Positions 1-9,071 of a stretch of DNA of 48,318 nt are shown here, piece after piece (positions within the stretch are counted from its first letter, which is position 1; each line of letters starts with the position of its first letter). Below the pieces are notes generated by a model. The model had not been told where the DNA came from. It did no database searches and was given only the letters and a program-made list of their open reading frames with translations. Made by a program: the position numbers and the translations under genes. Where the stretch lies: NCBI GenBank assembly GCA_902630465.1, contig CACOVJ010000001.1, forward strand, positions 1 through 48,318, in the 5' to 3' direction. The DNA is from an uncultured Alphaproteobacteria bacterium. GTDB lineage: Bacteria; Pseudomonadota; Alphaproteobacteria; HIMB59; GCA-002718135.

Positions 1-897
1 TCTATTATTTTTTTACCATTAACTATTATTTTTCTAAACAATATTATTTTTAGCAAAAGTAATAAAAAAATCTATGAAAGTAAATATGATGTGGAAATAT
101 TTCAATTAAACTTTAAAGTTGATAAACTCTTATTTAGTAAAGAAAAAAATATTGAAAAAATAATAGATCATATAAAAAATAGTGAAGCTGAAATCTTAAT
201 TTTTGCAGAAAACAATTATCCGTTCATAGTTAATAAATCTAGAATAGAAAAAATTCAAAGTATAATGAAGAAAAATCAAAACATTATCATTGGAGGCACA
301 AGAAAAAATAATGAAAATTATTTTAACTCAATGTTACACATTACATCTTCAAATATTTCATATTTTGACAAAAAAATACTGGTACCATTTGGAGAATTTT
401 TACCTTTAAGAAACTTATTTAGTTTTTTTGAACCTATTTCAGGTTCATTTGATTTTTCAAAAGGTAGGGAGAAAAGGCTAATAATATTAGATAGTGATTT
501 AAGTTTTATTCCAATTATTTGTTATGAAATAGCATTTTATTGGAAACTGATTAATAATATAAATTATGATAGTAACTTAATTATTAACATAACAAATGAT
601 ATATGGTTTGGAAAATATCTTGGTCCTTTCCAACATTTTTATCTAACTAAAATGAGAGCTGCAGAGTTTAATAAAACAATAATCAGAGTTTCAAATAATG
701 GTATATCAGGTATTTTTGATAATAAAGGAAGAATATTATTAAATATACCTTTGAATACACATAAGAATGAAAAATTAGAAATTAAATTAGAAAACAACAA
801 AAATTTCTATAAAACACATAACATACTGAGACTTTATTTTTTTTCTATCTGTCTTTTATTATTTTTATTTAATTTTAAAAAAAACAATGCATCTTAA
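1..897 (+). CDS. lnt: Apolipoprotein N-acyltransferase, C-terminal part (5' end outside window)
   Basis: Lnt transfers an acyl chain from phospholipid to the N-terminal cysteine of lipoproteins in the inner membrane. The frame is open from base 1, so the GTG at 91 is an internal Val codon and the gene is cut by the window edge. Visible parts are the end of a membrane helix (first ~16 residues), the nitrilase-like domain and a final C-terminal membrane helix. The catalytic triad is recognisable: Glu in IFAENNYPF, Lys in KKILVPFGEFLP and Cys in PIICYEIAF. The usual WPE before the catalytic Glu reads FAE here. The 3' end overlaps trmB by 11 bases. The family call is secure from the three motifs. 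Confidence 0.93.
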   Translation, partial: SIIFLPLTIIFLNNIIFSKSNKKIYESKYDVEIFQLNFKVDKLLFSKEKNIEKIIDHIKNSEAEILIFAENNYPFIVNKSRIEKIQSIMKKNQNIIIGGTRKNNENYFNSMLHITSSNISYFDKKILVPFGEFLPLRNLFSFFEPISGSFDFSKGREKRLIILDSDLSFIPIICYEIAFYWKLINNINYDSNLIINITNDIWFGKYLGPFQHFYLTKMRAAEFNKTIIRVSNNGISGIFDNKGRILLNIPLNTHKNEKLEIKLENNKNFYKTHNILRLYFFSICLLLFLFNFKKNNAS

Positions 898-1543
898 TAA
901 TTATAAAAATCGTTTATATGGTAGGACTAAAGGTAGGAGTAATAAAAAAATAGACATTGAAAATTATTCTGAATTAATTCAAAAATTTTCAGTATCTAAA
1001 TTAGATAATAATAAAAGTTATATTTTAGACATTGGATCTGGGTATGGAGAAACCAGTGTATTTTTTGCATCTTTGTATAAAAAAGATACCATAATAGCAT
1101 GTGATAAATACATTAATGGTAATTTCAATCTTGTTAATCAAATTCAAAAAAAAAATATAACTAATATTAGATTACATTCTGGTAATGTAATAGATATTTT
1201 AGAAAATAATAAAAAAAAAAAATTTTTCAGTTTAGTTTCAATTTTTTTTCCAGACCCGTGGCCTAAAAAGAAACACTATAAAAGAAGATTAATATCAAAA
1301 AGTTTTCTAGAAATACTGCATCCATTTATAAAAAATAAAGGAAGAATTTGTATTGTTACAGACTCTATTTCATATTCTAGATCTATTATAAATTGTATAT
1401 ATTCAACTAAACTCTATTATTGGTCTAATCAAAAAACCCAATACATTGATGTCAAGAATTATTATAATGTTGAGACTAAATATTACAAAAAGGCAATTAT
1501 TTCTGGTAGGAAGCCAATTTTATTTATTTTAACAAAAATATAG
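887..1543 (+). CDS. trmB: tRNA (guanine-N7-)-methyltransferase
   Basis: TrmB uses SAM to make m7G46 in the tRNA variable loop. The SAM-binding loop DIGSGYGE lies at about residues 48-55, and the family signature FPDPWPKKKHYKRR at 121-134. At 218 aa it is slightly short for the family. The ATG at 887 overlaps the lnt stop by 11 bases and no Shine-Dalgarno is visible, suggesting translational coupling. Residues 109-112 are four Lys codons forming a run of 12 A (1211-1222), a possible slippage site. A strong hairpin terminator follows the gene. In many alphaproteobacteria lnt is followed by metK, trmB and rimP; here metK and rimP are absent at this place. Confidence 0.95.
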   Translation: MHLNNYKNRLYGRTKGRSNKKIDIENYSELIQKFSVSKLDNNKSYILDIGSGYGETSVFFASLYKKDTIIACDKYINGNFNLVNQIQKKNITNIRLHSGNVIDILENNKKKKFFSLVSIFFPDPWPKKKHYKRRLISKSFLEILHPFIKNKGRICIVTDSISYSRSIINCIYSTKLYYWSNQKTQYIDVKNYYNVETKYYKKAIISGRKPILFILTKI

Positions 1544-1584
1544 ACTTGTATTTTTAAATAATTTTAATATAGACACATAATAAT

Positions 1585-1610
1585 AAGGTGGGTAATCCCA
1601 CCTTTTTTTT
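1585..1610 (+). terminator. Rho-independent terminator or attenuator upstream of nusA
   Basis: A perfect 8-bp stem, AAGGTGGG (1585-1592) and CCCACCTT (1597-1604) with a TAAT loop, runs into an uninterrupted T tract to 1610. It ends 6 bases before the nusA ATG at 1617 and occupies the place where a ribosome-binding site would lie. It can terminate lnt-trmB transcripts, act as a leader attenuator for nusA-infB, or both. Terminator-like leaders in front of rimP-nusA operons are known in proteobacteria. It is the only GC-rich hairpin plus T tract I found in the window. Confidence 0.85.
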
Positions 1611-1616
1611 ATAAAT

Positions 1617-3155
1617 ATGGCTAAAAAAAAATTTAATGTAATAAGAGAAGAGATGCTCCAAGTAGCAACAAATGTTGCGCAGGAAAAAAATATTGATCAA
1701 GATTCAGTGTTCTCTGCTATGGAGCAAGCACTAGAGAAAGCTGCTAGAGTCAAATACGGACAAGAGATTGATTTAAGGATAAATATTGACAGAGATACTG
1801 GTGATATAAAATTAAATTCATATCTCGAAGTTGTCGAAAATATAGATGAAGAATTTCAGTCTAGGCAGATATTATTAGACGATGCTAAGAAAAATAATCC
1901 AAATATAAATATTGGTGAGTTTATAATTAAAGAACTCCCACCAATTGAGCTCGGAAGAGTAGCTGCCCAAAACGCTAAAGGTGTTATTATACAAAAGGTT
2001 AGAGAAGCAGATAAGTCAAAACAGTATGATGAGTACAAGGATAAGGTTGGAGAAATTGCTGTAGGTATTGTTAAGAGAGTGGAATTTGGAAACTTAATAA
2101 TAGATCTAGGAAAAAGCGAAGCAATAATTAAGAGAGAAGAACTAATTCCTAGAGAAACTTTTAAAAATGGTGATAGAGTAAGGGCATATATTTACGAGGT
2201 AAAAAATGATGTTAAGGGTTACCAAGTTTTCTTATCTAGAACACATCCACAGTTTTTATCCAAGCTGTTTTTTCAGGAAGTACCAGAAATTTATGATGGT
2301 ATAATTGTTGTAAAAAGTGTAGCAAGAGATCCTGGGTCAAGAGCTAAAATTAGTGTGCATACTGAAGACTCAACCATTGATCCCGTCGGAGCTTGTGTTG
2401 GTATGAGGGGGTCAAGAGTACAAGCAGTAGTCAACGAACTTCAAGGAGAAAAAATCGATATTGTAACTTGGTCTGATAACCAAGCTACATTTTTAGCAAA
2501 TGCATTAGCTCCTGCTGAAGTAAGTAAGATTTTTCTATTTGAAGAGAAAAACAAAGTTGAAGTTGTTATTCCTGATGATCAGCTAAGTCTTGCTATTGGT
2601 CGAAAAGGTCAAAATGTTAAGTTAGCCTCAAATTTAACTAGTCTTGAAATAGATATTTTAACTGAAGAAGAGGAATCTGAAAGAAGACAACAAGAATTTA
2701 AAGAAAAAAGTTTGTTACTTTCAGAATCATTAGATGTTGAGGATGTTATTGCTCAGCTTTTAGTAACAGATGGCTATACATCAATTGAATCCATTGCAGC
2801 TGAAACTAGGGAAAACATTGAAAAAATTGAAGGTTTTGACGCTGAACTTGCAAATGAAATCTTAGAAAGAGCAACAAATTATCTTAAGGATCAAGAACAA
2901 GAAAATCAAAAGATTATAGACGAAAAAATTAAAGATGAAGACTTAAAAAATTTAGAAGGCATGAATAGCTCAATTTTAGCTGAACTTGCAAAATCTGATA
3001 TTTTGACAATAAATGATTTTGCTGATCTTGCATCATTTGAACTCATTGATAAAGAAGAAGGAATTCTTAGAAAATTAGAATTAGAAGAAGAAGTAGTCAA
3101 CAATATGATTATGAAAGCAAGAGAAAATTGGTTTACAGAAACAAACAAGGATTGA
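1617..3155 (+). CDS. nusA: Transcription termination/antitermination factor NusA
   Basis: NusA binds RNA polymerase and nascent RNA to control pausing, termination and antitermination. In order, the protein shows an N-terminal polymerase-binding domain (about 1-130), an S1 domain (about 140-205), KH1 with VGMRGSRVQAVV near 261, KH2 with AIGRKGQNVKLA near 325, and an acidic C-terminal helix-hairpin-helix region (about 365-505). Length 512 aa is normal for alphaproteobacteria. The ATG lies 6 bases after the T tract of the preceding terminator and has no Shine-Dalgarno, which is unusual for an operon head. rimP, normally just upstream, is absent. The end overlaps the infB leader, whose Shine-Dalgarno sits inside the nusA 3' end. 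Confidence 0.97.
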   Translation: MAKKKFNVIREEMLQVATNVAQEKNIDQDSVFSAMEQALEKAARVKYGQEIDLRINIDRDTGDIKLNSYLEVVENIDEEFQSRQILLDDAKKNNPNINIGEFIIKELPPIELGRVAAQNAKGVIIQKVREADKSKQYDEYKDKVGEIAVGIVKRVEFGNLIIDLGKSEAIIKREELIPRETFKNGDRVRAYIYEVKNDVKGYQVFLSRTHPQFLSKLFFQEVPEIYDGIIVVKSVARDPGSRAKISVHTEDSTIDPVGACVGMRGSRVQAVVNELQGEKIDIVTWSDNQATFLANALAPAEVSKIFLFEEKNKVEVVIPDDQLSLAIGRKGQNVKLASNLTSLEIDILTEEEESERRQQEFKEKSLLLSESLDVEDVIAQLLVTDGYTSIESIAAETRENIEKIEGFDAELANEILERATNYLKDQEQENQKIIDEKIKDEDLKNLEGMNSSILAELAKSDILTINDFADLASFELIDKEEGILRKLELEEEVVNNMIMKARENWFTETNKD

Positions 3156-3157
3156 AA

Positions 3158-5392
3158 TTGGATAAAGAAAAAGGAAATAAAAAAAAACCTCTAAAATTAT
3201 CATCTTCAGGAAGACTTCAAATTAGAAAAAACTTAGGACCTTCTGGTGATAAAATTTCATCTAGTGGTAATAAAAAAACAATTCAAATTGTTTTTAAAAA
3301 TAAAAATAATCAACAGAAAAAATCTTCAACTGCACAGTCAAATTTTAGAGGATCTTCAAGTTTAAGAACTCCACGACCAGCATCACAAGTATCTCCAAAT
3401 TTTGCTCCGGCAAGTAAGAACAAAGGTTTTGAAAATAAAAATAAAAAAAATACAGACAACAAAAAATCACAACCAAAAAAATCAACTTTAAAACCTATTG
3501 AAGATGAATTTAGTAAATTTGATGCAAAAAAGATATTAGAACAAGAGGAACAAGAATTTGATAAGTTTCCAAGTTTAGCTAAAATAAAAAGAGCTAGAGA
3601 AAGAGAAAGATTAAAAACTTCCGAATTAAATGAAACTAAAATATCAAGAGAAGTTTCAATACCCGATATAATTACAGTGCAAGAATTAGCTAATAGAATG
3701 GCTGAAAAAACTGCTGATGTTGTTAAAACTCTAATGAAGCTTGGTGTTATGGCTAATGCTACACAATCAATCGAATCTGACACAGCTCAATTAGTAGCTG
3801 AAGAATTGGGACATAAAGTCAGTATAGTAAAAGATGATGATGTTCTTAGTGAAATAGAGGATTACGAAGATGATCTAAATTTATTAAAAGATAGACCTCC
3901 AGTTGTTACAATAATGGGTCATGTTGACCATGGTAAAACTAGTTTGTTAGATGCTTTTAGGCAAACTAATATCGTTTCTGGAGAAGCAGGAGGTATAACT
4001 CAGCATATTGGAGCTTATCAAATAAACAACAATGACAAAAAAATAACTTTTATTGATACACCAGGTCATGCTGCATTTTCTAATATGAGAGCAAGAGGTT
4101 CTCAAACTACTGACATTATAATACTTGTTGTAGCTGCTGATGATGGGATTAAACCACAAACAATAGAGTCAATAGCACATGCAAAATCTGCAAATGTTCC
4201 ATTAATTGTAGCAATAAATAAAATAGATCTAGATAATTCAGATCCAGATAAAGTTAGAAATGAATTGTTGTCTCATGAAGTAATTGTAGAAAAACTTAGC
4301 GGTGAAGTTCTTGATATTGAAGTATCCGCAATTAAAAAATTAAACTTAGATAAATTAGAGGAGGCAATTCATTTGCAAGCTGATTTACTCAATTTAAAAG
4401 CTAATCCTAATAGATCAGCGAGAGGAGTTATTATTGAGTCCAAGTTAGAAAAAGGAAGAGGTTCAGTTGCTACAGTTTTAGTTCAAAAAGGAACTTTGAA
4501 AGTTAGTGATATTTTTGTTTCTGGAGCAGAATGGGGAAAAGTTAAGGCACTTATTAACGATAAAGGTGAAAATATAACATTAGCTGAGCCATCTGTTCCT
4601 GTAGAGGTTCTTGGTTTTGACTCTAACCCTTTAGCTGGAGATGACTTTATTGTAGTAGATAACGAGTCTACAGCTAGAAAAATTGCTGAATATAGATCTA
4701 GTAAAATACAAATTCAAAAAAATACTGTTGCAAAATCTAATGTAGAAGAAATGTTTGCCCAAATAAATAAAGGTGAAGAAACTATTCTTCCAGTCGTGAT
4801 TAAAACAGATGTACAAGGTTCAGCTGAAGCAATTGAAAATTCAATAACAAAGTTATCTACTGACGAAGTTAAAGTAAATGTAATCTTTAAAGGTGTTGGT
4901 GCCATTACTGAAAGTGATGTAACTTTAGCGGGATCTAGTAGAGGTTTTATAGTTGGATTTAATGTAAGGGCCTTACCACATGCTAGGGATATTGCAAAAA
5001 GAGATGGTGTCGATATTAGATATTATTCAATAATATATGAACTAATTGATGATATAAAAAATTTACTTACAGGATTGTTAAAACCAGATATTTCAGAAAA
5101 TATTACTGGCAATGTAGAGATTAGAGAAGTTTTCAATATATCAAAAGTAGGCAATATTGCTGGTTGTATGGTTAAAGAAGGATATATTTCTAGAAAATCA
5201 CAAATTAGGGTTTTACGTGATAGTGTTGTTATTCATAAAGGCCAAATCAGTAGTCTTAAAAGATTTAAAGAAGAAGTTTCTGAGGTTAAAACCGGTTTTG
5301 AGTGTGGAGTAATGATAGATAATTATAGTGATATTAAGGTTGGAGACGTTATTGAAACTTTTGAGGAAATTTCTACAAATAGAAAACTTTAA
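3158..5392 (+). CDS. infB: Translation initiation factor IF-2
   Basis: IF-2 is the GTPase that brings initiator fMet-tRNA to the 30S subunit and promotes subunit joining. The GTPase motifs are clear: GHVDHGKT near residue 253, DTPGH near 300 and NKID near 353, followed by the beta-barrel, IF2 and C-terminal fMet-tRNA domains. I chose the TTG at 3158 because AAGGA (3147-3151) lies 6 bases upstream and the protein then begins with the charged KKKPL...GRLQIRK segment typical of alphaproteobacterial IF-2. The frame is open further upstream (TTG at 3152 and 3128, the latter overlapping nusA by 28 bases). This start gives 744 aa, shorter than many relatives because the N-terminal linker is compact. 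The ylxR gene usually between nusA and infB is missing. Confidence 0.96.
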   Translation: MDKEKGNKKKPLKLSSSGRLQIRKNLGPSGDKISSSGNKKTIQIVFKNKNNQQKKSSTAQSNFRGSSSLRTPRPASQVSPNFAPASKNKGFENKNKKNTDNKKSQPKKSTLKPIEDEFSKFDAKKILEQEEQEFDKFPSLAKIKRARERERLKTSELNETKISREVSIPDIITVQELANRMAEKTADVVKTLMKLGVMANATQSIESDTAQLVAEELGHKVSIVKDDDVLSEIEDYEDDLNLLKDRPPVVTIMGHVDHGKTSLLDAFRQTNIVSGEAGGITQHIGAYQINNNDKKITFIDTPGHAAFSNMRARGSQTTDIIILVVAADDGIKPQTIESIAHAKSANVPLIVAINKIDLDNSDPDKVRNELLSHEVIVEKLSGEVLDIEVSAIKKLNLDKLEEAIHLQADLLNLKANPNRSARGVIIESKLEKGRGSVATVLVQKGTLKVSDIFVSGAEWGKVKALINDKGENITLAEPSVPVEVLGFDSNPLAGDDFIVVDNESTARKIAEYRSSKIQIQKNTVAKSNVEEMFAQINKGEETILPVVIKTDVQGSAEAIENSITKLSTDEVKVNVIFKGVGAITESDVTLAGSSRGFIVGFNVRALPHARDIAKRDGVDIRYYSIIYELIDDIKNLLTGLLKPDISENITGNVEIREVFNISKVGNIAGCMVKEGYISRKSQIRVLRDSVVIHKGQISSLKRFKEEVSEVKTGFECGVMIDNYSDIKVGDVIETFEEISTNRKL

Positions 5393-5407: not shown

Positions 5408-5776
5408 ATGGAAACTCAAAGACAGATTAGATTTGGAGAGCTCATAAGATCACTAATTAGTGACTGTTTATTAAAAGAAGATTTCTTCGATGAAAATATA
5501 AATCCAACGGCAATAACCGTATCTTTTGTTAGAATGTCAAAAGATTTAAAAATAGCTAACATATATTTTATGCCACTTGGCGGCTTAAATAAAGATAAAA
5601 TCTTACAGAATCTTAACGACAGAAAATATATATTTCAAAAGTTTTTATCAAAAGCAAAAATTCATTCTAAATTTACACCCAAACTAACATTTTTCTTAGA
5701 CGATACATTTGATGAAGCAGAAAAGATTGAAAAACTATTAATGAATAAAAATGTTGTCAGAGATATTAAAGAATGA
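5408..5776 (+). CDS. rbfA: Ribosome-binding factor A
   Basis: RbfA is a small KH-fold protein that helps mature the 5' end of 16S rRNA in the 30S subunit. The N-terminus, with RQIRFGELIRSLISDCLL, and the central VRMSKDLKIANIYFMPLGG segment match the family; 122 aa is the usual size. It sits 15 bases after infB and its stop overlaps the truB start (ATGA), the standard nusA-infB-rbfA-truB order. No clear Shine-Dalgarno was seen, so coupling to infB is likely. Confidence rests on both sequence pattern and position. Confidence 0.93.
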   Translation: METQRQIRFGELIRSLISDCLLKEDFFDENINPTAITVSFVRMSKDLKIANIYFMPLGGLNKDKILQNLNDRKYIFQKFLSKAKIHSKFTPKLTFFLDDTFDEAEKIEKLLMNKNVVRDIKE

Positions 5777-6678
5777 AGAATATTCAAGGATGGATTAACT
5801 TATATAAACCAAAGAATTTAACTTCTTTCAAAGCCATAAATCAATTAAAAAAGAAATTTTCTATAGAGAAGATTGGACATGGTGGTACATTAGATCCTGC
5901 AGCGGAAGGCATATTACCAATAGCAGTTGGTAAGGCTACTAAACTTATTCCTTTTATTAAAATTAACCTCAAAATATATAATTTTGTTGTAAATTGGGGT
6001 TATCAAACAACAACAGATGATAGTGAAGGTGAAATATTATTTCGTTCTAATATTTATCCCACTCTTTCAAATATTAAGAAAAAAGTTAAAAATTATTTAG
6101 GCAATATCAATCAAATACCTCCAAAAGTATCTGCAGTAAAAATAAATGGTATAAGAGCTTATAAATTATTTAGACAAAAAAAATCTTTTGATATTCAATC
6201 AAAAAAAGTATTTGTTAAAGATTTAAAAGTTGTAAGACACGAAAAATTAAGAACACATTTTAGAATTGAATGTGGCAAAGGTTTCTATATAAGAAGCTTA
6301 GCTCGGGATTTGGCTCAAGACCTTGGTACTTATGGCCACATATCAGATCTGGAAAGAGAAAAAGTAGGTAAATTTACAAAAGAAACATCGATTTTACTGG
6401 ACGATTTACTTAAAATAAGACAAAGGCACGAAGAGATTAATTGTATCTTACCTACAATTTCAATGCTGGACGACATCTTGGCTTATGAAATTGAAGATCT
6501 TGATGATATTAAAGATTTGTCATTCGGAAGATCAATTAAAATTGATGAGAAAAAAATTATAAATTCTCAATCAATCTCTCTAGATAGAAAAGTAATTTTT
6601 TTATCAAAAAAAGGAGACATTGTCTCAATTGGCAAATTAGTTGGTAATTTGTTTAAACCAAACAAAATTTTATTATAG
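5773..6678 (+). CDS. truB: tRNA pseudouridine-55 synthase
   Basis: TruB converts U55 of the tRNA T-loop to pseudouridine. The catalytic motif GHGGTLDPAAEG gives the nucleophilic Asp as residue 41, and KINGIRAYKLFR and GFYIRSLARDL are further family blocks. At 301 aa it matches bacterial TruB. Its ATG overlaps the rbfA stop by 4 bases (ATGA). It is followed within 8 bases by rpsO, and the last codons of truB carry the rpsO Shine-Dalgarno. Confidence 0.96.
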   Translation: MKNIQGWINLYKPKNLTSFKAINQLKKKFSIEKIGHGGTLDPAAEGILPIAVGKATKLIPFIKINLKIYNFVVNWGYQTTTDDSEGEILFRSNIYPTLSNIKKKVKNYLGNINQIPPKVSAVKINGIRAYKLFRQKKSFDIQSKKVFVKDLKVVRHEKLRTHFRIECGKGFYIRSLARDLAQDLGTYGHISDLEREKVGKFTKETSILLDDLLKIRQRHEEINCILPTISMLDDILAYEIEDLDDIKDLSFGRSIKIDEKKIINSQSISLDRKVIFLSKKGDIVSIGKLVGNLFKPNKILL

Positions 6679-6686
6679 GAGTATTG

Positions 6687-6959
6687 ATGTCGATATCTAA
6701 AGAAGTTAAAATAAATTTAATTAATGAATTTTCTAAATCAGAAAAAGACACTGGTTCAACAAGCGTACAAATTGCCGTAATTAGTGAAAGAATTAAAAAT
6801 TTAACAGAGCATTTTAAAACTCATAAAAAAGATAATCATTCTAAAAGAGGTTTAGTTGCACTAGTTAATAAAAGAAAAAAACTACTTAACTATCTATCTA
6901 AAAAAAATAATTCTGAATATTTAGAATTAATAAAAAAACTAAATATAAGAGGTAAATAA
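6687..6959 (+). CDS. rpsO: 30S ribosomal protein S15
   Basis: S15 binds 16S rRNA early in 30S assembly. The sequence has the family pattern TGSTSVQIAVISERIKNLTEHF and the conserved KDNHSKRGL block. The ATG at 6687 is preferred over an in-frame TTG at 6684: TAGGAG at 6676-6681 is well spaced for 6687 and the product MSISKEVK is then 90 aa, close to the usual 89. Only 8 bases separate it from truB, so there is no room for a structured autoregulatory leader of the E. coli type. Confidence 0.96.
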   Translation: MSISKEVKINLINEFSKSEKDTGSTSVQIAVISERIKNLTEHFKTHKKDNHSKRGLVALVNKRKKLLNYLSKKNNSEYLELIKKLNIRGK

Positions 6960-6977
6960 AGAGGAAATAAATATATT

Positions 6978-9071
6978 ATGTTTGATATAAAAAATATAGA
7001 AATTGAATGGGCAGGAAGAAAACTTAAATTAGAAACTGGTAAGATCGCAAGACAAGCAGATGCTTCAGTAACTGCAACATACGGCGGTACTACTGTAATG
7101 GCAAATGTTGTAGCCGCTAAAGAAGCAAATCCAGACATGGATTTTTTTCCATTAACTGTAAATTATCAGGAAAAATATTATTCTGTTGGTAAAATTCCAG
7201 GAGGTTTTTTTAAAAGAGAAGCAAGACCAACAGAAAAGGAGACATTAGTTTCAAGGTTAATTGATAGACCAGTTAGACCACTGTTTCATAAAGATTTTAA
7301 AAATGAAACCCAAGTTACATGTACTGTGATATCACACGATCAAGAAAATGATTCGGATATAGTTGCAATGATTGCAGCTAGTGCAGCGTTGACTTTATCT
7401 GGATTACCATTTTTAGGACCACTTGGTGCAATTAAAATTGGTTATGTTGATAACGAGTTTATTATTAATCCAAGTAAAAGTGAATTACTAAATTCTAAAC
7501 TAGAATTAGTATTGGCCGGAACAAAAGAAGGTGTTCTTATGATTGAATCTGAAGCACATGAGCTTTCAGAGAAACAAATGTTAGATGCAGTAGTTCTTGG
7601 ACAAGAAAATTACAAAGCAGTTATAGAAGCAATTATTTCATTAGCGAAAATAGCTGCTAAAGAGCCATGGGAAATTAAGGAAAAAGATGAAGAAGTAAAA
7701 AATCTGCCATCAAAAATCAGTGACCAGTTTGAGAAAGAATTCATCGATGCTTATAAAATAATTGAAAAACAAAAAAGATCAGAAAAATTATCTTCTATAA
7801 GAAATGAAATATCTACTAAATTTGAAAGTGAGACACTTTCCTCAGTTTTAGTATCAGATGCAATTAAAAATGTAGAAAAAGATATTGTTAGAGGTGAGTT
7901 AATAAATAGTGGAAATCGAATTGATGGACGAGATACAAAAACAGTTCGCCCAATAGTATGTGAAACAGGAATTTTAGAGAGAACACACGGTTCTGCTTTA
8001 TTTACAAGAGGAGAAACACAAGCACTTGTTGTATCTACTCTTGGAACAGGGTTAGATGAGCAAAGAATTGATGCAATTGATGGAGAATATACTGAAAATT
8101 TTATGCTCCATTATAATTTTCCTCCATATTCAGTTGGTGAAGTAGGAAGAATGGGATCAACTAGTAGAAGAGAAATAGGTCACGGTAAATTAGCATGGAG
8201 AGCAATACACCCAATGTTACCTTCAAAGGAAAAATTTCCTTATACTTATCGAGTTGTATCAGAAATTACAGAGTCCAATGGTTCTAGTTCAATGGCTACT
8301 GTTTGTGGAACTTCTATGTCTTTAATGGATGCAGGAGTGCCATTAGAAAGACCTGTAGCTGGTATTGCAATGGGCTTAATTAAAGATGATAATAAATATG
8401 TAATATTATCCGACATTTTAGGCGATGAAGATCATCTAGGTGATATGGACTTTAAAGTAGCTGGAACATCCGAAGGCATAACTTCATTACAAATGGATAT
8501 AAAAATAACAAGTATAACAGCTGAAATTATGGAAGAAGCATTAGCGCAAGCTAAAGATGGGCGTTTCCATATATTAAGAGAAATGGCAAAGGCAATTGAA
8601 AAACCAAATCAATCAATTTCGAAATACGCACCAACAATAACTAATCTGCAAATAAATAAAGATAAAATAAGAGAAGTTATTGGAAAAGGAGGCGCAGTTA
8701 TTAGAGAAATATCTGAGACAACTGGTGCAAAAATTGAAATTAACGACGAAGGTTTAGTTAGTATTGCAGCCGTAGATCAAAAATCTGGCAATGATGCATT
8801 AGAATGGATTAAAGGTATAGTAGAAGAACCAGAGATTGGAAAAATTTATGAAGGTAAAGTAATAAAGATAATGGAATTTGGTGCCTTTGTTAATTTTATG
8901 GGGTCTACAGATGGACTGGTTCATATTAGTCAATTAAAGAATGAAAGAGTAGAGAAAGTTGAAGATGTTGTTAATGAGGGAGATATGGTTAAAGTGAAAG
9001 TACTAGATGTTGACTCAAGAGGCAAAATAAAACTTTCTATGAAAGCAGTTGAAGCAGAAGAAAAATCTTAA
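6978..9071 (+). CDS. pnp: Polyribonucleotide nucleotidyltransferase (PNPase)
   Basis: PNPase is a phosphorolytic 3'-5' exoribonuclease of mRNA decay, normally trimeric. Two RNase PH-like domains flank a helical linker; the second holds [20 protein letters not shown] and the conserved [19 protein letters not shown] block. A KH domain with [15 protein letters not shown] begins near residue 564 and an S1 domain (about 618-690) ends the protein. Length 697 aa is standard. GAGGA at 6961-6965 is 12 bases from the ATG, longer than ideal. rpsO-pnp adjacency is conserved across bacteria. The 3' end overlaps the next gene by 23 bases. Confidence 0.98.

Follow-up and report, generated by a model that had tools for sequence, protein, structure and literature searches.

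The window, by which we mean the whole analysed stretch of 48,318 nucleotides, comes from an uncultured alphaproteobacterium whose genome assembly comprises 1.02 Mb in 54 contigs and is 77% complete. Near one end of it the order is lnt, trmB, a hairpin, nusA, infB, rbfA and truB (Table 1). Because rimP is absent (see below), nusA is the first gene of the operon. The trmB product is a diverged TrmB, judged by its score relative to the cut-off, and the trmB ATG overlaps the end of lnt.

Table 1. Position and supporting evidence of the features around the nusA leader
Feature	Position	Strand	Evidence or remark
trmB (tRNA guanosine-46 N7-methyltransferase), upstream gene	887-1543	+	TIGR00091 E 1.1e-24, 86.9 bits, below the curated cut-off of 112.65
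-35-like CTTGTA, one base past the trmB stop	1545-1550	+	CTTG in 67/67 distinct f1 rows
-10-like TATAGA, 17 nt past the -35 hexamer	1568-1573	+	TATA in 67/67 distinct f1 rows
Predicted transcription start	1579-1582	+	Placed from the -10 position
Putative terminator/attenuator hairpin AAGGTGGG-TAAT-CCCACCTT, rimP-leader type, GGG...CCC core	1585-1604	+	Sequence, fold, comparison
T8 tract	1603-1610	+	Exactly 8 T in 69/70 measured f1 rows, 9 in one
Six-base spacer up to the start codon, no Shine-Dalgarno	1611-1616	+	Sequence
nusA, 512 aa, first gene of the operon	1617-3155	+	TIGR01953 E 2.6e-123
infB (IF-2) ORF, true start uncertain	3128-5392	+	TIGR00487 E 1.2e-235
rbfA	5408-5776	+	TIGR00082, 55.8 bits, over the cut-off of 51.15
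truB	5773-6678	+	TIGR00431 E 3.9e-64
rpsO-like ORF	6684-6959		Named by reading only
pnp-like ORF	6978-9071		Named by reading only

The 20-nt hairpin, spelled AAGGTGGGTAATCCCACCTT, has a perfect stem of eight pairs (1585-1592 with 1597-1604; five G-C and three A-U) and the four-base loop TAAT. Two of the eight T of the adjoining tract are also paired in the stem, and between the tract and the nusA ATG at 1617 lie the six bases ATAAAT. The sequence-only reading, which had noticed a hairpin and T tract ending six bases before this ATG, was confirmed in its coordinates, in the eight pairs and in the T tract. As RNA, the 20-mer folded with -12.7 kcal/mol (z -3.5), and none of 200 shuffled sequences was equally good. 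A terminator filter (stem of at least 6 pairs, at least 4 of them G-C, loop of 3-8, at least 6 T in 8) was applied to the window and 15 further stretches of the same genome (L221-L235), amounting to 335,385 bases or about a third of the genome. Seven hits were obtained, two of which were the nusA-leader locus, on both strands, and by energy the leader hairpin was the fourth of the seven. As a terminator the hairpin is good, but it is not the best. Judged from the sequences, it is not a chance structure, and the comparative evidence is decisive.

The pattern AGGTGGGN{3,6}CCCRCCTTTTT was found once each in 67 of 81 genomes (the window's own and 80 relatives), whereas the reversed pattern, used as control, was found in none of the 81. 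A NusA match was present in the same 67 genomes and missing in the same 14, and in all 67 the pattern shared contig and strand with the NusA match and preceded it by 8-29 nt. A hairpin missing from close relatives that possess nusA had been named as evidence against the initial interpretation; every genome with a NusA match in this set carried it. The 67 genomes cover two families, f1 and f2, and the NusA of f2 is 54-57% identical to that of the window. For f1, a set of 80 loci was used except L074, L077 and L079, which start inside nusA, and L102, L103 and L105-L109, which belong to other alphaproteobacteria; this left 70 rows plus the window. L085, with a five-base loop, was outside the counts of tract, spacer and promoter regular expression (70 rows) and included in the count of distinct promoter rows (67) and in the identity count (71); the set for hairpin pairing consisted of 73 rows (the 71, L129 and L130). 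With an anchored script the GGG...CCC hairpin and T-tract were found before nusA in 73/73 f1 rows and in 18/18 f2 rows. The arms and T8 (24 nt) had a mean identity between rows of 96%, compared with 54% at the four-fold degenerate sites of nusA (71 f1 rows).

No Shine-Dalgarno sequence was found between the T-tract and the nusA ATG (1611-1616). Its absence had been noted in the sequence-only reading; the observation holds, but it is ordinary in this genome, since SD-like 4-mers stand ahead of 26 of 278 ORFs (at least 90 aa, crude calls, own-genome stretches) and of 24 of 278 after one shuffle. The missing Shine-Dalgarno was therefore rejected as an unusual feature. The genome apparently starts most of its genes without SD-like 4-mers, their frequency in the window and L221-L235 being about that of the shuffle. 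In one f1 sub-clade (L086-L089, L091, L092, L096, L097) the T8 is followed by GGTGA or GGTAA, and a hairpin A-U pair is replaced by G-U; an SD-like site seems to have been gained or kept there.

Models of RimP had no match in the window's genome and 40 relatives, ten of these genomes being at least 90% complete (RimP_N, PF02576, 0/41; RimP_C, PF17384, 0/41); among 14 control genomes, 10 gave a match. Of 144 genomes spread over the class, 126 had a RimP_N match and 140 a NusA match. Two families outside the window's order, f84 and f122, also had no RimP_N match (0/61). When genomes with readable upstream DNA were picked by NusA alone, the GGG...CCC hairpin and T-tract preceded nusA in 13/13 of f84 and in 10/10 of f122, and all of 20 f84 loci selected through the motif had NusA directly downstream. 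The exact f84 pattern was present in 28 of 37 f84 and in none of 24 f122 genomes; among the nine f84 genomes without it, four with readable upstream DNA had a hairpin variant, two had a partial nusA and three had no NusA match. The partial nusA genes of L214 (f122), L240 and L241 (f84) lack the start. Loci L181, L189, L194 and L197 have the f84 pattern on both strands (A-tract before, T-tract after), and there the hairpin might in addition halt transcripts that arrive from the side of nusA.

Of 28 rimP-bearing genomes sampled, 18 have a hairpin with a T-tract at a distance of 47-251 nt upstream of the RimP_N match, in many of them in the form GGGTGGGCC...GGCCCGCC. The same scan, whose hits were compared by eye with the positions of RimP_N, gave 14 hits elsewhere in these 28 stretches (up to about 2 kb). 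No hairpin was found before rimP in the other ten genomes, three of which have under about 330 bases upstream. By the anchored script, 11 of these 28 genomes have the GGG...CCC type, which in ten includes UGGG. The 144-genome set contained 11 genomes outside the window's order with nusA and without a RimP_N match. The leader was present in three (G136, G162, G192) and was not found in eight (G087, G096, G099, G122, G139, G201, G203, G222), several of which are drafts; near nusA, G096 shows no more than a weak hairpin, different in sequence, and the contig of G203 provides fewer than 500 upstream bases. Since eight of these 11 show no leader before nusA, it appears to be dispensable in some lineages. 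Four genomes of the class sample rated 96-97% complete (G147, G156, G189, G190) matched neither NusA (TIGR01953) nor RimP_N.

The hairpins of the four rimP-less families (f1, f2, f84, f122) were compared by pair counts with the anchored script; a MAFFT alignment of the hairpins left the loops ungapped. GGG on the 5' arm and CCC on the 3' arm were present in 29/29 f84 rows, which represent 27 genomes (L191/L211 and L196/L213 are duplicates) and 20 of which were fetched with the motif itself, and in 9/10 f122 rows, the tenth (L202) being assigned by eye. UGGG stands on the 5' arm in all four families (rows of the anchored script), with A or G opposite the U. Four further f84 genomes were read: three have U opposite the U, and one (L238) has CGGG. 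GGG...CCC thus forms the firm core, a preceding U not being present in every genome. The two pairs lying further out than this U are G-C/G-C in f1 and f2, A-U/G-C in f122 and A-U/A-U in f84 (one G-U), and the loops of f1 and f2 read TTAT, ATTT, TAAT and the like. The sequence-only reading had proposed to look for compensatory changes in relatives; by these pair counts, the outer pairs differ between families on both sides while pairing is kept. The comparison also fits a constraint on the sequence of the 5' arm that would go beyond structure.

The genes upstream of the hairpin differ between families. In G136 and G192 the nearest long upstream ORF has the opposite direction, so that the hairpin is not the terminator of that ORF, and at the f84 loci L186 and L215 the upstream ORF reads, by eye, as MetK and not as TrmB. 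Because the upstream genes in other families are different or opposed, the hairpin seems to travel with nusA, and its retention in rimP-less bacteria suggests that it is tied to this gene. The role of trmB terminator, also ascribed to it at the outset, does not explain why it is kept in general, and a generic trmB terminator was judged unlikely.

Upstream of the hairpin, CTTG-N19/20-TATA was present in 67/67 distinct f1 rows. CTTG (1545-1548) and TATA (1568-1571) were invariant among these sequences, most positions between them varied, and in four of the rows the spacer was one base longer. A regular expression requiring CTTGA and ATATA (or ACTATA) matched 62 of 70 f1 rows, at a distance to the hairpin of 12-14 or 22-25 nt according to sub-clade; the remaining eight, including the window, have CTTGT. 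In family f122, all 10 rows have CTTGA-N19-TATA/TAAA, with 26-31 nt between its end and the hairpin, and f84 has TTGA with a TA-rich -10, only partly regular. In f2 no more than about 16 nt lie between the upstream gene's stop and the hairpin, and a promoter, if any, would therefore lie inside trmB. Before other genes CTTG-N(16-20)-TATA is rare (five hits over 105 regions, too sparse for genome-wide enrichment), so that the case for the window promoter is one from conservation. It is probable that nusA is transcribed from a promoter of its own ahead of the hairpin, and the hairpin would therefore begin the nusA transcript; with a predicted start near 1579-1582, the terminated RNA would be about 30 nt long. 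This corrects the earlier proposal that nusA is reached by read-through: the hairpin would probably be carried by transcripts of nusA itself and not solely by those that continue from trmB, since the conserved promoter-like pair 1545-1550/1568-1573 stands between the trmB stop and the hairpin. An alternative -10 nearer to the hairpin, CATAAT (1576-1581), would place the start inside the 5' arm, but it was rejected, as the matching positions vary in relatives. At the f84 loci L182-L187 a block AAGTTAYCTGG, with variable surroundings, was observed 6-7 nt before the 8-base 5' arm; it is possibly an extra leader element or part of a promoter.

The window hairpin resembles the rimP-leader, described in the available part of Naville & Gautheret 2010 (PMC2965389) as a terminator with GGGc(...)gCCC that lies 4-130 nt before the gene, for which no antiterminator is visible and whose effector was proposed to be RimP or, as the authors thought likelier, NusA. 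Like the rimP-leader as described there, it is short, with a G-rich 5' arm, a C-rich 3' arm, a GGG...CCC core and a U-stretch, it has no antiterminator and it stands at the head of a nusA-infB operon. An intrinsic-terminator hairpin with U-stretch is common to both, the location in a leader being predicted in the window from the promoter-like motif upstream. Its distance of 6 nt to nusA, with infB and rbfA next, is within the range of 4-130 nt before the first gene. It differs from that description (PMC2965389, as far as available) in that rimP was undetected in the window's genome and the leader, rimP having been lost, directly abuts nusA; moreover, the c-g pair inside GGG...CCC is lacking in the window (U1593, U1596), whereas C...G is present in f84 rows. 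The sequence-only reading had referred to terminator leaders known from rimP-nusA operons and supposed that here such a leader would act on nusA itself; the comparison supports that the hairpin is a leader element of this kind in the nusA operon.

In Streptococcus agalactiae, RNA-seq showed that transcription in front of rimP-nusA stops 31 nt downstream of its start, and negative feedback by NusA was suggested for this terminator (PMC4448216, available part); there termination was measured and lies before rimP, whereas in the window it is predicted, at about 30 nt, and lies before nusA. In E. coli, too, according to sources available in part, terminators precede the operon and NusA reportedly controls the operon to which it belongs, but there rimP is preceded by metY, three promoters and two terminators, and the operon contains RNase III sites. 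Covariance models of Rfam (release 15) gave no gathering hit, and no rimP-leader family was among the 18 hits at E <= 10; the best family at the site, Termite-leu (E 0.0049, 23.4 bits), was rejected, its gathering score being 51. In the literature searched, the matches listed included no report of a leader kept and abutting nusA after the loss of rimP, and no title on a nusA leader or on rimP loss in SAR11 or HIMB59. The available main text of a survey of structured RNAs in Pelagibacter (PMC2704228) does not mention nusA, rimP, trmB or infB. The kind of element is already known; what appears to be new is its retention next to nusA after the loss of rimP, in at least two orders.

The sequences establish the conservation, single copy and position of the hairpin, the promoter-like motif, the absence of a rimP match and the persistence behind other upstream genes; the start site, termination and NusA as effector are inferred. 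We consider it fairly probable that the hairpin is a leader attenuator of nusA-infB-rbfA-truB, of the rimP-leader kind, which came to stand directly before nusA after the loss of rimP and whose likeliest sensor is NusA. RNA polymerase would start at the promoter just behind trmB, transcribe about 5 nt and then the UGGG...CCCA hairpin with U8, and would either stop after about 30 nt or cross six bases into the nusA start codon. Plentiful NusA would cause more pausing and termination at the hairpin, and with scarce NusA the polymerase would read through, so that NusA would set the level of its own operon in a feedback exerted directly on nusA through premature termination. The hairpin is perhaps a brake put by NusA on its own operon. 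NusA-dependent terminators are often described as weak, and the clean stem and perfect U8 of the window terminator count against such dependence.

The leader is too short for an antiterminator partner, and therefore the choice between termination and read-through must fall to a trans-acting factor or to the polymerase. Only gene order and literature single out NusA in this role, and the same attenuator could respond instead to NusG, Rho, polymerase speed, nucleotide supply or a product of the operon (IF2, RbfA). We hold such an effector to be rather unlikely, given that the leader was kept beside nusA after rimP loss in four families, that among the products of the operon NusA is the termination factor and that, according to sources available in part, feedback of E. 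coli NusA on this operon has been reported.

Two further explanations are each improbable in our estimate. The hairpin might simply end the lnt-trmB transcript and insulate nusA, which would then be expressed by read-through or from another promoter. It is on the same strand as trmB, it is a good hairpin with a T8, and the scanned stretches contain few comparable terminators; yet the promoter-like motif is before the hairpin and not after it, in other families the hairpin stands behind a MetK-like ORF or an ORF of opposite direction, primary sequence and not pairing alone has been kept, and there is a single copy per genome. Alternatively, the hairpin and U8 might act on the finished mRNA, the 5' stem protecting against decay and the U-tract serving as a landing site for the ribosome (S1) in place of a Shine-Dalgarno sequence, which this genome hardly uses; the U8 ends 6 nt before the AUG in 54 of the 70 measured f1 rows. 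However, some f84 loci have AGGAGG-like sites after the T-tract, with a variable spacer, and one f1 sub-clade has GGTGA or GGTAA after the tract, and both still keep the hairpin and T-tract. A hairpin running into T8-T9 is, moreover, the signature of a terminator.

Starting from the preferred reading, a NusA-sensing attenuator, we tentatively propose a more specific picture, which we regard as possible but somewhat doubtful: after the loss of rimP these streamlined bacteria would have retained the leader as a minimal NusA thermostat, with a transcript of ~30 nt consisting of one hairpin and U8, and NusA as the sole input. The GGUGGG 5' arm, which does not vary within f1/f2, rows with a U-G pair included, would serve polymerase-bound NusA as recognition site, and NusA, not RimP, would be the effector of the rimP-leader in bacteria generally. 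For experiments the window offers a very small construct, in which -35 to AUG takes up about 73 bases. The 2010 paper, in its available part (PMC2965389), left undecided whether RimP or NusA reads the rimP-leader. The leader without rimP, in at least two orders (those of the window and of f84), is a natural deletion that can serve as a test of RimP versus NusA; it would argue against RimP as the effector, and the rimP-less genomes that carry the leader point to NusA.
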